Shown: in pieces, positions 23,239 to 27,475 of the stretch
Position numbering within the stretch: the first letter of the stretch is position 1
Layout of the letters: the number at the start of each line of letters is the position of its first letter
From: Candidatus Gastranaerophilales bacterium
GTDB lineage: Bacteria > Cyanobacteriota > Vampirovibrionia > Gastranaerophilales > Gastranaerophilaceae
DNA: 45,462 nt
NCBI GenBank assembly: GCA_944325315.1
Contig: CALVAA010000014.1
Coordinates: 1 to 45,462 of the forward strand
Reading direction: 5' to 3'
Notes under the pieces: model-generated
Database searches by the model: none
Told to the model about the DNA's origin: nothing
What the model saw: only the letters and a program-made list of their open reading frames with translations
Made by a program: the position numbers and the translations under genes

Positions 23239-24050
23239 TGAAAAAAATTAAAACTATAGCACTGATTGCTCCAAGCGGAAACATTAAAAATTTTAGTGAA
23301 ATTAATGAAAAAATTAATATTTTAGAAAAAAAATTTAAAATAAAAAAGTATTATAGTGAAAATATATCCAACGGCTATCTTTCAGATACAGATGAAAACA
23401 GAATAATGTTTTTCGAAAAAGCTTTTTCAGACAAAGAAGTTGACCTTGTTATATCAATTAGAGGCGGATTTGGAGCAATCAGAATTGTTGATAAAATCAA
23501 TTATAACAAATTTAAAGACTGCAATAAAATGTATTTAGGCAGTTCCGATGCTACAATTTTTCTTGCAGCTTTAAACAAAAACACAAATATAAAATGTTTC
23601 CATGGGTTAATGATTACAAACGGGTTTGTTGAAAATTTAGAAAATAATATTAAAATAATTGAAAACAATCTTTTTAAAATTAATATTAAACCTTTTTATT
23701 TAAAAGATAAAGTTCAAGGTCTTTTATGGGGAGGAAATTTATCAAGCATTGTAAGTTTATTATCAGATGAAATTTATCTTCCCAATAAAGATATTATTCT
23801 TTTTTTGGAAGATATAAACGAACCTTTGTATAAAATTGATAAAATGCTTTTTGAAATATACAGAAATAAACAAATAAAAGAAAAAATTAAAGGAATAATT
23901 TTTGGAGATTTTTATTTTGAAAAAGAGATTAATGACTTATTAAAAAATTATTCAATCATGTTTAATATTCCTACTTTTTTAAGCTCAGATATTACCCACA
24001 AACCAAATAATATTACTATTCCTTTTGGAATAAATATATCCTTAAATTAG
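23238..24050 (+). CDS. ldcA: LD-carboxypeptidase, peptidase family S66
   Basis: A 270-residue cytoplasmic serine peptidase predicted to cut the terminal D-alanine from muropeptides during peptidoglycan recycling. The catalytic triad is in place: Ser103 in GSSDATIFL (family GYSDxT), Glu191 in FLEDINE and His254 in ITHKPNNITIPFG. RGGFGA (75-80) and WGGNLSS (164-170) are also family motifs. It has no signal peptide, in keeping with LdcA. It is coupled to the upstream methyltransferase by a TAATG overlap and is convergent with the next gene, overlapping by 4 bases. Confidence 0.9.
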   Translation: MKKIKTIALIAPSGNIKNFSEINEKINILEKKFKIKKYYSENISNGYLSDTDENRIMFFEKAFSDKEVDLVISIRGGFGAIRIVDKINYNKFKDCNKMYLGSSDATIFLAALNKNTNIKCFHGLMITNGFVENLENNIKIIENNLFKINIKPFYLKDKVQGLLWGGNLSSIVSLLSDEIYLPNKDIILFLEDINEPLYKIDKMLFEIYRNKQIKEKIKGIIFGDFYFEKEINDLLKNYSIMFNIPTFLSSDITHKPNNITIPFGINISLN

Positions 24051-24547
24051 TTATTGCCCGGCGCTTTTCCTGAAATCTTAACACCTGCAACACTATATGA
24101 AGCCTGATTTTTAGATAACAATTTATTATTTTCATCATATGTTTCAACAACAAAATTATCAGTTCCGGTAAAATTATTTCCCAAAAGGGTAAACTTAACG
24201 GTTTCTTTGTAAACTGTTTTTGCGCCGTTTTTACTAACGGTTTTTTGCCTTTCAAATTCAAGAGTTCTATTATCTTTTGTTTTGTCTTTTATTTTAATTT
24301 CACTATGAGCCCCGCTTTGAAGATTTTCTAAAATTAAAGTATCACTATAACCCGAAAGCGTCCAAATATCCCTGCTTTCATAGTTAAACATTGTAGGATT
24401 ATTTGAACTGTTTAATTTTGAAATTACACCCCAAGAACCAAAAAAACCTTTAGGAATATATTCTTCACTGACATTACCTTTAAGCAAACCTTGAGCATTT
24501 GCAGCCAAAAAAACAAAAGAAAAAACAATTAATACAATTTTTTTCAT
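24047..24547 (-). CDS. Small exported protein of unknown function
   Basis: A 166-residue protein with a Sec signal peptide (MKKIVLIVFSFVFLAANAQG, cut near residue 18-20). The mature part is rich in Asn, Lys, Thr and beta-strand-like alternation (IPKGFFGSWGVISKLNSS, then KFTLLGNNFTGTDNF), suggesting a small beta fold in the periplasm. I do not recognise a family. No SD is present; a TAAAAT element ends 6 bases before the ATG. It stands alone, convergent with ldcA. Confidence 0.7.
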   Translation of the reverse strand: MKKIVLIVFSFVFLAANAQGLLKGNVSEEYIPKGFFGSWGVISKLNSSNNPTMFNYESRDIWTLSGYSDTLILENLQSGAHSEIKIKDKTKDNRTLEFERQKTVSKNGAKTVYKETVKFTLLGNNFTGTDNFVVETYDENNKLLSKNQASYSVAGVKISGKAPGNN

Positions 24548-24553
24548 ATCTTG

Positions 24554-24559
24554 ATTTTA
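24554..24559 (-). promoter_or_regulatory. -10-like element, leaderless layout
   Basis: Minus-strand TAAAAT ends 6 bases before the ATG at 24547, with no SD. The hexamer is weaker than TATAAT. Confidence 0.35.
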
Positions 24560-24640
24560 ATTAATTTTAAAAAAAATTCAACCCTAAGATTGAGGTATTT
24601 TGAATAATATATTGTAAGATTACATTAAAGAGGAGTTATT

Positions 24641-25111
24641 TTGAAACAAACATTGTCTGTATTAATACCTTTAATGCTTATAATAGCTTTGGTTTTAAAT
24701 CAAGCGCTTCCGGCTGATGCCGCTAAAAAAAACGTCAAAAAGAAAGGTATTGCTCAGGAAACTTTAAATGAAATCACCGTAAAAGTTGATGATTTGACAA
24801 AAAAAATCTATGAAAGAGAACTATACACACCCGAAGATTCAAAGTCTTTAATTTCCTTAAAACTCCAATTGGATGAACAAATGGATATTTTGCCCGAAAC
24901 TTCTTTTGCTCCGATTTATTTTAAAATAGGGAATATATTCAGATTAAGAGGCAATGAAAAAGACGCAATCGTATGCTATCAAACAATACTGGAAAACTTT
25001 TCAGATACTGCATACGGACCTAAAGCAAGAGATTTATTAACCGAAATGGGAGTTGAAATTAAAATTCCGATTGAAGATGAATCTGAAGAAAATTTTAGTG
25101 ATGAAATATAA
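24641..25111 (+). CDS. Exported TPR-like protein
   Basis: A 156-residue protein starting at TTG, chosen because GAGGAG sits 6-7 bases upstream and no ATG fits. A signal sequence or N-terminal membrane helix covers about 1-28 (LSVLIPLMLIIALVLNQALP then ADAAKK). The rest is helical, with one clear tetratricopeptide-like repeat: PIYFKIGNIFRLRGNEKDAI then VCYQTILENF and PKARDLLTEM (about 91-140). TPR units bind proteins. The specific partner is unknown. The acidic C-terminal end is probably flexible. Confidence 0.7.
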   Translation: MKQTLSVLIPLMLIIALVLNQALPADAAKKNVKKKGIAQETLNEITVKVDDLTKKIYERELYTPEDSKSLISLKLQLDEQMDILPETSFAPIYFKIGNIFRLRGNEKDAIVCYQTILENFSDTAYGPKARDLLTEMGVEIKIPIEDESEENFSDEI

Positions 25112-25125: not shown

Positions 25126-25140
25126 TGAAATATAAAAACA

Positions 25141-25199
25141 TACAGGAAATAGGGGTGTAAATCCCCAACCGGGCCGCGGCCGTGAAAGTCGGAATACTG
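25141..25199 (+). promoter_or_regulatory. Compact cobalamin-riboswitch-like aptamer
   Basis: A GC-rich, structured stretch in very AT-rich DNA that follows the order of the cobalamin riboswitch core. AGGAAAT (25144-25150) stands for the conserved GGGAA. GGGG-TGTAAAT-CCCC (25152-25166) fits the GGTGnAAnTCC hairpin. AACCGGGCCGCGGCCGTGA (25167-25185) aligns to the AACnGnnCCGCnnCnGTnA core. AAGTCGGAATACTG (25186-25199) is a partial B12 box (consensus RAGYCMGGAGACC). The last two blocks are contiguous, so the variable arms normally between them are missing. A cobalamin or cobalamin-variant RNA is the best fit; ligand binding is unproven. Confidence 0.6.
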
Positions 25200-25201
25200 A
25201 A

Positions 25202-25245
25202 AAGAGTGTTTTTACGTGATTCTAAAACCTCTTAAAAGATTTTTT
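25202..25245 (+). terminator. Terminator-like expression platform after the aptamer
   Basis: AAGAG and GTTTT (25202-25206, 25208-25212) pair with AAAAC and CTCTT (25224-25233), a 10-bp stem with one bulge, followed by AAAAGA and six T (25240-25245). Its place between aptamer and SD is that of a riboswitch expression platform. The stem is AU-rich and the T run is offset, so termination may be weak. Confidence 0.45.
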
Positions 25246-25269
25246 GCGAGCGTGCCCAAGGAGAAAACA

Positions 25270-25974
25270 TTGGTAGCACCTTTCACGCAAGTAACACAAG
25301 GCAATAAATGCCCGCACGGGCTTCCTGTTGGAGCATGCCCGATTTGTTCAGGCATGGGAGGCGGAGGAGCAAGAAAAAACAAAGATGTACCCAGAAACCC
25401 CGGAGAGATGACCTACAGCGAATGTATGGCAGCATGGATAAAAATCCAGGCTGCAAAAGACGCTAAAATTCAAGCAAGAATTGACAAGCTAGAACAAGCA
25501 CAAGCTCAACAACTATTAAACAGGGTGATGTCCGGGGTTGATAAAATTCAAAAGTCATTTAATGAATTTATGCAAAAGCTTGAAAATTTGCCTACATTAA
25601 TAAAAACACCAATTCAAACAATAGCAAAAGTAATTATAGCTCCTGTTTTAAATTTAATCTCAAAATTACCCGTTGCAATAAATAATATTCAGATGTTTTT
25701 TTCTAATATCACCAAAATGATAATTTCAGTCAGTGAAAAAATAGCTATGGTTTTAGGAGAGATTAAAAATTTTATAAACGCAAAAGTTTCAGATAATATC
25801 AAAAAAACACTGAAAACCATTCTTACTCTTTTTAGTCAAAGCGAGGAAGAAGAAAAAGAAGACGAAGAAACACAAAAAATTAAAGCAAGAGAAATTAAAA
25901 AAGTCCTAAAAGGACTGTTTAGAATAAGAAGAAAAGAAGAAGAAAAAGAAGAAGATGAGTATCAATCCGCTTGA
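25270..25974 (+). CDS. Unknown protein with N-terminal Cys/His motif, behind a riboswitch-like leader
   Basis: I start at TTG 25270 because AAGGAG (25258-25263) lies 6 bases upstream; an earlier in-frame GTG at 25216 lies inside the leader hairpin. The 234-residue product opens with NKCPHGLPVGACPICSGMGG, a CxH...CxxC arrangement (Cys14, His16, Cys23, Cys26) that may bind zinc. A helical middle with Gln/Ala repeats (about 50-90), a long amphipathic or hydrophobic stretch (about 105-165) and a highly charged Glu/Lys tail follow. I do not recognise a family. It overlaps the next membrane-protein gene by 20 bases, so the two are probably one functional unit. Confidence 0.7.
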   Translation: MVAPFTQVTQGNKCPHGLPVGACPICSGMGGGGARKNKDVPRNPGEMTYSECMAAWIKIQAAKDAKIQARIDKLEQAQAQQLLNRVMSGVDKIQKSFNEFMQKLENLPTLIKTPIQTIAKVIIAPVLNLISKLPVAINNIQMFFSNITKMIISVSEKIAMVLGEIKNFINAKVSDNIKKTLKTILTLFSQSEEEEKEDEETQKIKAREIKKVLKGLFRIRRKEEEKEEDEYQSA

Positions 25975-27475
25975 GTTAAAAAAATCGTCAATACCATACA
26001 AAAAAAGCCAATCACAACAGTATGATACAATTAAAGCAAATCAGAAAAATATTAATCATAACACAATTCAAGGTGTTTTATTAAATAACTATATTAAAAA
26101 ACAAAACACATCAAATGATATTGCAAACTTTGACAGAATAGCCTCATCACTTATGATTCCTGATGAGATAAAACCAAACACAAATTTATCTGATAAAAAA
26201 CAAGAAAACTTTAATTATAAAAAAGTACTAAAACCGATATTATTAGCAGCTATTGCATCAATTGGTTCAATTGGCGCTATTAGTATGTGTTTAAATAAAT
26301 ATTCAAAAGTAATGGTAAAACAAGCAGATCTGGTAAGACCAGAGGATTTAGCAAGAAACTTTAATATTGTTGAAGAACCTCATTTTGCAATGTATAGAGC
26401 ATTAAGAGAGCCAAATGCAAAAAATATTGCAGGTTTGATAGGTGTAGGCTTAATGAGCGGAATTACCCTGAGCGCTAAAAATCTTGTTGAAGGAATCAGA
26501 GAGGTTTGGGTAAAAAAACAAAATTGCGATATTGAACATGATTTGCAAGAAAATTTAATTCAGGTTGAAACAGATGTTTTCTCAGGCAAGTTAAATGTTG
26601 TAAATACTTTGCTGACCGATACTACAAACTATTTTAAAAATGTTTTTACAAACAATAACACAAACTTTAAAAGTTTTTTAAATTTTAAAGGAAATGAAAA
26701 AAAAGATGATGATGACAAAAACAAAAAACCATCGTCTAAAAAAATATGGCTGATTGCCGCATTAGGAGCTGTTTCAATAAGCGGAATTATGCTTGCTTTA
26801 ATTAAAAATTATCATAAAACACTTAAAAATCTTGATTCTTTTGTTGAAAAGTATCAAGACAGTGAAATTAAAGCAAAAATTATAGAAGCTGTTAATTGCA
26901 AAGATAAACAAAAAGCAATAAAAAATTTAACCGACATTTTAAAAGTAATAAATGCAAAAGATGAAACTATATCTTCAAATCTTAAAAAAATTGAAGGTAT
27001 AACAGAAAAAGAAATTTTAAATGCAACAAAAAGTATCAAAGATGCTCAAATATATGCAAAAGCGCCGGAAGCACTGGGTGGTGTCAGTGAAAAAATTCAA
27101 TATTATTGTTACATAAACGAAGAAAGAGGACATCTTTATAATTGGATTTTAAACCCTGAAAACAAATTTAATAAATATTTGTTTTTATCTTTTTGTGCTA
27201 TAAGTTCTATTGGCTTTATTGCAAAAGAAGCAGCAGGTGCAATCAAAGAAGTTGTTGTCGGAAGAGAAAATTCCAAATGCGAATTAAATTTAAGAAAAAA
27301 TCTTGTAGATGTTGAAATCAGAAATTTTAAAGCAAAAAAAATGAGTGCAATAAATCCTATGATAGATAATTTTATCTATCAACTTGAAAAAGGTAAACCA
27401 AAAGAGGAATTAAAAGAGTTAGCAGAAAATATTTTAGTTGAAATTAAAAACGGTCCTCCTTATGTATATTCATAA
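25955..27475 (+). CDS. Internally duplicated membrane protein of unknown function
   Basis: A 506-residue protein with four predicted membrane segments (about 93-113, 157-173, 264-284, 407-424). Two copies of one unit are visible: residues about 91-222 and 263-472 each run membrane helix, loop, membrane helix, then a conserved soluble block. The blocks align as AKNLVEGIREVWVKKQN...NLIQVETDVF (from 174) and AKEAAGAIKEVVVGREN...NLVDVEIRNF (from 423). The second copy has a longer inter-helix loop. The N-terminal 85 residues are polar and Asn/Gln/Lys-rich. It overlaps the Cys/His-motif gene by 20 bases and is probably co-regulated by the riboswitch-like leader. No known family recognised. Confidence 0.75.
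   Translation: MSINPLELKKSSIPYKKSQSQQYDTIKANQKNINHNTIQGVLLNNYIKKQNTSNDIANFDRIASSLMIPDEIKPNTNLSDKKQENFNYKKVLKPILLAAIASIGSIGAISMCLNKYSKVMVKQADLVRPEDLARNFNIVEEPHFAMYRALREPNAKNIAGLIGVGLMSGITLSAKNLVEGIREVWVKKQNCDIEHDLQENLIQVETDVFSGKLNVVNTLLTDTTNYFKNVFTNNNTNFKSFLNFKGNEKKDDDDKNKKPSSKKIWLIAALGAVSISGIMLALIKNYHKTLKNLDSFVEKYQDSEIKAKIIEAVNCKDKQKAIKNLTDILKVINAKDETISSNLKKIEGITEKEILNATKSIKDAQIYAKAPEALGGVSEKIQYYCYINEERGHLYNWILNPENKFNKYLFLSFCAISSIGFIAKEAAGAIKEVVVGRENSKCELNLRKNLVDVEIRNFKAKKMSAINPMIDNFIYQLEKGKPKEELKELAENILVEIKNGPPYVYS

Follow-up and report, generated by a model that had tools for sequence, protein, structure and literature searches.

The window analysed in this study is the whole of a 45,462-nucleotide stretch from a Candidatus Gastranaerophilales bacterium (contig CALVAA010000014.1, forward strand). 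It carries two co-directional genes, called A and B here, whose open reading frames (ORFs; 25216/25270-25974 and 25955-27475) have 20 bases in common, just as an earlier reading of the sequence alone had described, and which are preceded by a structured leader. The features of this unit are as follows.

25129..25207, + strand: aptamer assigned to the AdoCbl-II cobalamin riboswitches, before A-B (RF01689 35.8 bits, R1 69.0 bits, covariation)
25208..25269, + strand: expression platform, from the sequence, with a hairpin at 25208-25228 (GTTTT/AAAAC) and the loop UACGUGAUUCU
25258..25263, + strand: Shine-Dalgarno sequence AAGGAG of gene A, from the sequence
25270..25974, + strand: gene A, 234 aa from TTG, with N-terminal CxH-x6-CxxC, invariant C52, long amphipathic helices and a charged tail
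25309..25347, + strand: CPHGLPVGACPIC motif of gene A, a probable metal site
25955..27475, + strand: gene B, 506 aa, with four hydrophobic segments and the near-invariant C-terminus KNGPPYVYS
26372..26590, + strand: first internal repeat copy of B (residues ~140-212), profile-profile E 6e-9
27116..27337, + strand: second internal repeat copy of B (residues ~388-461), profile-profile E 6e-9

The ORF of gene A offers GTG 25216 as an alternative start; the TTG at 25270, directly behind AAGGAG, is the likelier one, because this signal lies just upstream of it and because the A starts of relatives align there.

Proteins A and B

In protein A, the CPHGLPVGACPIC motif that had been noticed near the N-terminus is present, with the residues C14, H16, C23, C26 and C52 as well as P15, G17, P19 and P24 invariant in 60 homologues, and its DNA pattern occurs only once in the bacterium's own genome. 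The amphipathic stretch and charged tail noted earlier were likewise seen, as long amphipathic helices followed by the tail; the AlphaFold model of A is of middling confidence (pLDDT 73, pTM 0.43).

Gene B encodes hydrophobic segments at residues 88-117, 154-181, 260-287 and 405-427, and the sequence-only reading had described it as two copies (91-222 and 263-472) of a helix-loop-helix unit with a soluble block. Profile-profile alignment of the two halves supports the duplication with a probability of 95.9% and an E-value of 6e-9 over 73 columns (about 140-212 against 388-461), while reversed and column-shuffled controls reach a probability of at most 2%. The duplication is therefore real and shorter than claimed: profile comparison detects no sequence similarity between the front parts of the halves, and the original boundaries hold for topology only. 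The repeat unit runs from a short helix through a membrane segment to a long helix. As for the soluble block, it is predicted instead as a single unbroken helix of 75-78 residues which begins inside the membrane; in the AlphaFold model, helices of 78 and 75 residues span 155-232 and 404-478 with a local pLDDT mostly of 85-93, the whole model of B being of middling confidence (pLDDT 74, pTM 0.60).

That the two proteins belong to no known family, as had been suspected, agrees with all searches. Neither A nor B has a family in Pfam or NCBIfam, a relative among PDB sequences, or an ATPase or binding-protein motif, and no match stands out when both models are searched with Foldseek and B also with VIA-align, the highest Z, 7.1, being no more than long helices would be expected to give. 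In Pfam, A has weak matches to Baculo_PEP_C, Prominin, Apolipoprotein and Phasin; these were rejected, as were matches to tape-measure proteins in PHROGs, since all fall below the cut-offs and are of the kind that amphipathic or coiled helices commonly give. Judged by these sequence and model searches, A and B are two new protein families under a switch of known class.

The cobalamin riboswitch and its regulon

The leader had been called riboswitch-like and taken as a sign of response to a small molecule; the match to Rfam RF01689, the covariation and the orthologous leaders now identify it, at the level of sequence, as a cobalamin (AdoCbl-II) riboswitch. The window leader scores 35.8 bits (E 4.4e-7) against RF01689, which is 0.7 bit short of the gathering score of 36.5. 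Of the 20 loci that were scanned, 12 exceed this score, and nine of the 12 lie before A-B; the leaders L003, L005, L008, L011, L013, L017, L021, L022 and L054 reach 36.9-48.3 bits. A covariance model built from 15 leaders, R1, recovers 28 of the 30 best A-B loci and gives 69.0 bits to the window leader. The 15-pair structure holds across the 28 orthologous leaders, 95% of cells being paired; its covariation score is 0.384, against 0.159 for shuffled alignments (0/500) and at most 0.197 for slid controls, and double-changed cells number 57 against 17 expected on shuffling, eight pairs having double changes. When the window leader is folded alone thermodynamically, its minimum-energy fold is no better than those of shuffles. 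An FMN riboswitch was rejected as the leader's identity (11 bits), and a second match in the same genome (C12:20203, 20.6 bits) was taken as chance, since it lies beside sugar-ABC-permease-like genes and is not recovered by R1.

The hairpin downstream of the aptamer bears on the direction of regulation. In the window its loop UACGUGAUUCU holds a CGUG able to pair with the CGCG of aptamer loop L5, with one G-U; this pairing is weak and unclear by strict count, the platform of the window being among the weakest of the set. A downstream hairpin loop complementary to L5 by at least 4 Watson-Crick pairs is found in 49 of 66 leaders, against 31+/-3 (26-38) in shuffled ones. Cobalamin riboswitches are known to be read out through an L5-L13 kissing loop (PMC9600662), from which we infer by analogy that cobalamin switches A-B off. 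The leader is like other AdoCbl-II riboswitches in aptamer sequence and structure, in L5 with its complementary hairpin loop, and in targets expected of cobalamin regulation (nrdDG and btuBCDF); it is unlike them in that the A-B genes stand outside known families and in that the window copy falls below the cut-off.

In one clade (L113, L116-L129, L077, L091, L098, L103) a strong hairpin stands just before gene A. No Shine-Dalgarno sequence is apparent apart from the AAGG(A) in its 3' arm, and 6-7 T separate this arm from the ATG; the hairpin loop TGCGGTC is the L5 partner in some members. Going by this arrangement, the hairpin could be both a terminator and a lock on the ribosome site.

The same switch precedes further genes. 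Among 20 other riboswitch loci which were read, 16 stand before nrdD-nrdG, which encode a reductase that works without B12 (the NrdD identity was Pfam-checked in four of the 16); two stand before A in genus g25, which has no B, one (L052) before a B12-binding radical-SAM protein and one (L034) before a small ORF. In the genomes G054 and G038 the riboswitch precedes btuB-btuC-btuD-btuF; the receptor and binding protein of G054 find TonB-B12 and BtuF as their best NCBIfam matches, under the cut-offs. In four genomes (L081, L082, L090, L097) btuFDCB is arranged head-to-head with A, B and a third gene, C, each side having its own riboswitch. Two single targets deserve description: the radical-SAM protein at L052:1378-2778 (G032) lies directly under the switch, and the switch at L034:1164-1234 (G012) is followed by a 94-aa ORF of no recognised family (MQITKISAPNSYSAAVTKP...), which by its position is a candidate for a further member of the regulon.

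Conservation of the unit and the demand for B12

B occurs in 123 of 146 genomes of the family, nearly always as a single copy, and A in 123 of 142, two spurious matches (G062 and G077) being left out. The riboswitch is found in 132 of 142 family genomes, including all 123 with A, so that the gene pair and the leader RNA co-occur, as the earlier reading had proposed to check. Adjacency in relatives, another of its proposed checks, is kept as well: in a separate genome collection A stands directly before B in 77 of 80 loci, and the switch is detected upstream in at least 71 of these 80. With this adjacency, and with halves of B that are alike by profile comparison, neither outcome which that reading had named as refuting was seen. 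Two of the three non-adjacent loci begin at a contig edge and the third, L087, is a true exception; this locus (L148:6669-8159, genome G109) holds the only clear B that has neither A nor the riboswitch with it, and the genes around it are different. Upstream of the riboswitch, at 24047-25111 of the window, lie two genes whose presence beside the unit is conserved in about 20 of the 80 loci; one, on the - strand, encodes a 166-aa protein and the other a TPR-like protein of 156 aa.

Gene C (about 160 aa, for example L081:7456-7950) shares the motif AGIYRKTLVPDAFGPL and has no Pfam match. Because it follows B in 49 of the 80 loci, and because the order riboswitch-A-B-C recurs in L260, which belongs to a different family of the order, switch-A-B-C is probably the ancestral arrangement as judged from gene order. 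The window's genus has no gene C, and the genera g25 and g30 have C-type genes behind A and no B. B occurs in three of the order's families, and the other families of the class that were sampled yielded none; two weak matches elsewhere in the phylum (E 8e-6 and 9e-4) were taken as chance matches of helical sequence.

CobS is required to make or complete cobalamin. It was found in none of the 142 family genomes, with 10 of 14 control genomes positive, hence these bacteria must import B12. NrdJ, the AdoCbl-dependent reductase, scores above the cut-off in 97 of the 142 genomes, and the usual importers are rare: a FecCD/BtuC permease occurs in 12 of 142 and a TonB plug in 14, the 12 all among the 14. 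The 97 genomes with NrdJ divide into 87 having A without BtuB, five having BtuB and five having neither; four of the last five are less than 90% complete, and the remaining one, G080, is 99% complete. BtuB is present and A-B absent in all five sampled genomes of genus g19, and all five of genus g26 lack the switch, A, B, BtuB and intact NrdJ, while a B12-binding-domain protein is present there despite the absence of A-B. Conversely, 31 of the 123 genomes with A have no NrdJ, and A and BtuB occur together in nine sampled genomes. Because the genomes are related to each other, Fisher values on this distribution serve for description only, and an absence from an incomplete genome is to be taken with caution. 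A service of the switch to NrdJ alone was rejected, since genera without NrdJ keep the switch.

The window's own genome is a special case. By tblastn over about 97% of it, with a sensitivity limited enough to leave one of three control proteins undetected, no intact NrdJ and no MetH, MetE, QueG or BtuR were found. The families PF01032 (FecCD) and PF07715 (TonB plug) are absent from this genome. Its NrdD (L227:14987-17239) has no riboswitch, and the one candidate for a B12-using protein that could be seen is a radical-SAM protein, BchE/HpnJ-like, which carries a B12-binding domain. In place of NrdJ there is a 433-aa degenerate relative (L147:3256-4557, contig C3, - strand) beside scpA, scpB and smc, which is found in several genomes of the genus and keeps SPTGTIS and PSIEP, the usual cysteine site being apparently missing; going by its sequence, the enzyme may have been retired and taken on another function.

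Possible roles of A-B

The import route of many B12-auxotrophic bacteria is unknown, BtuCDF being predicted in only about half of them (PMC6072759), and the literature searched held no report of B12 uptake, a B12 importer or cobalamin riboswitches in Gastranaerophilales. Here is a gut order largely dependent on B12 through NrdJ, without CobS and mostly without BtuB/BtuC, which carries one conserved cobalamin-switched gene pair outside known families. Because of the B12 switch, and of their position beside or in place of known importers, A-B are the best candidates for B12 acquisition in the order on present sequence grounds. We give slightly better than even chances to the reading that A-B (ancestrally A-B-C) would be a membrane module, repressed by cobalamin, through which bacteria unable to make B12 acquire or handle it, with transport as a possible function. 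The observations behind this reading are the riboswitch, the regulon, the adjacency, the distribution, the repeat in B and the absence of the usual importers. That A-B(-C) would moreover form a new and unrelated class of B12 uptake system, replacing BtuB-BtuCDF in most of the order, is a tentative proposal that we hold to be somewhat doubtful.

In such a module, when cobalamin is scarce the riboswitch would stay empty and A and B would be made together, probably via coupled translation; when it is plentiful, the bound aptamer would let L5 kiss the downstream hairpin loop and expression would stop. B, with its four hydrophobic helices and a pair of very long helical arms, would be the integral membrane part, and A a helical partner at the membrane surface, whose Cys/His site may hold a metal or the cobalt of a corrinoid, comparable to the Cys of BtuM. 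Together they might take up the corrinoid or pass it on, with no ATPase of their own. We infer both the topology of B and the formation of an A-B complex.

The known systems offer partial parallels. BtuB with BtuCDF shares with A-B the switch, the regulon, sometimes a head-to-head arrangement and a partly exchangeable distribution, whereas A-B have no sequence or fold relation to it, and no TonB plug, FecCD, ATPase or binding protein: neither protein matches the permease, ATPase or binding protein of a FecCD-type ABC importer in Pfam or NCBIfam, and B, predicted all helical, lacks the plug and beta-barrel of a BtuB-type receptor. BtuM, which was proposed on the basis of its gene context, is a membrane protein linked to B12 that has no ATPase of its own and in which a conserved Cys is the cobalt ligand (PMC6072759). 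A-B resemble it in having no ATPase and in the conserved Cys/His of A; B differs from BtuM in its four membrane segments and its long helical arms, and the Cys/His site is in a separate protein. Family and fold searches gave no match between BtuM and A or B, and distant relatives could escape these; nor did A or B match a family of ECF transporter S-components. The nrdDG genes share with A-B the switch class, the genomes and the logic of being off when B12 is present, and differ in being enzymes of a known family rather than membrane proteins.

This last parallel leads to the main rival, in which A-B would lie outside uptake as a cobalamin-repressed, B12-independent substitute, as NrdDG is for NrdJ. 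The commonest other target of the switch is just such a substitute, and the persistence of A-B in genera without NrdJ would be explained. We nevertheless regard it as unlikely, as A-B stand head-to-head with btuBCDF, BtuB is present where g19 lacks A-B, neither protein has an enzyme-like family match, and g26 lost A-B along with intact NrdJ, where a substitute should have been kept, as NrdD is in the window's genome. Rather improbable, too, is the view of A-B as a factor of the envelope or of membrane remodelling, regulated by cobalamin and concerned with storage, vesicles, chaperoning or scaffolding, which would use or protect B12 or B12 enzymes, import taking another route: the resemblance of A to amphipathic lipid-binding helices (the weak apolipoprotein, phasin and prominin matches) and the long arms of B, with no transporter fold, would suit it, but it leaves 87 genomes with NrdJ without a candidate importer under a B12 switch. 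As to a leader that is a relic or chance match, with A-B unrelated to B12, the window's score just below the gathering cut-off and its undistinguished minimum-energy fold speak for it; against the covariation, the switch in 123 of 123 genomes with A, and nrdDG and btuBCDF as the other targets, we consider it very improbable indeed.

Among the uptake, signalling and scaffold options raised by the sequence-only reading, B12 uptake or handling is thus the one favoured by the regulon and the gene neighbourhood. The replacement by BtuB in g19 and the co-loss with intact NrdJ in g26 count for the acquisition module. Counting against it are the 31 genomes with A and no NrdJ, G080, the nine genomes with both A and BtuB, the B12-binding protein of g26 without A-B, the A without B of g25 and g30, and the lack of an ATPase or binding-protein motif and of a fold match. 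A-B are conserved across the window's genus, where NrdJ is degenerate, and this counts against the simplest version of B12 acquisition: either the window's genome has a B12 enzyme still unrecognised, or A-B do something that cobalamin makes unnecessary. With these candidates the question of B12 import in the order becomes testable at the level of genes, and the families of A and B gain a physiological context.

B, C and the NrdJ-like protein begin with similar short N-terminal motifs (MSINPLE, MKIQAITNPI, MINRVSSIKTPI), which, from their likeness, could be a shared targeting signal.
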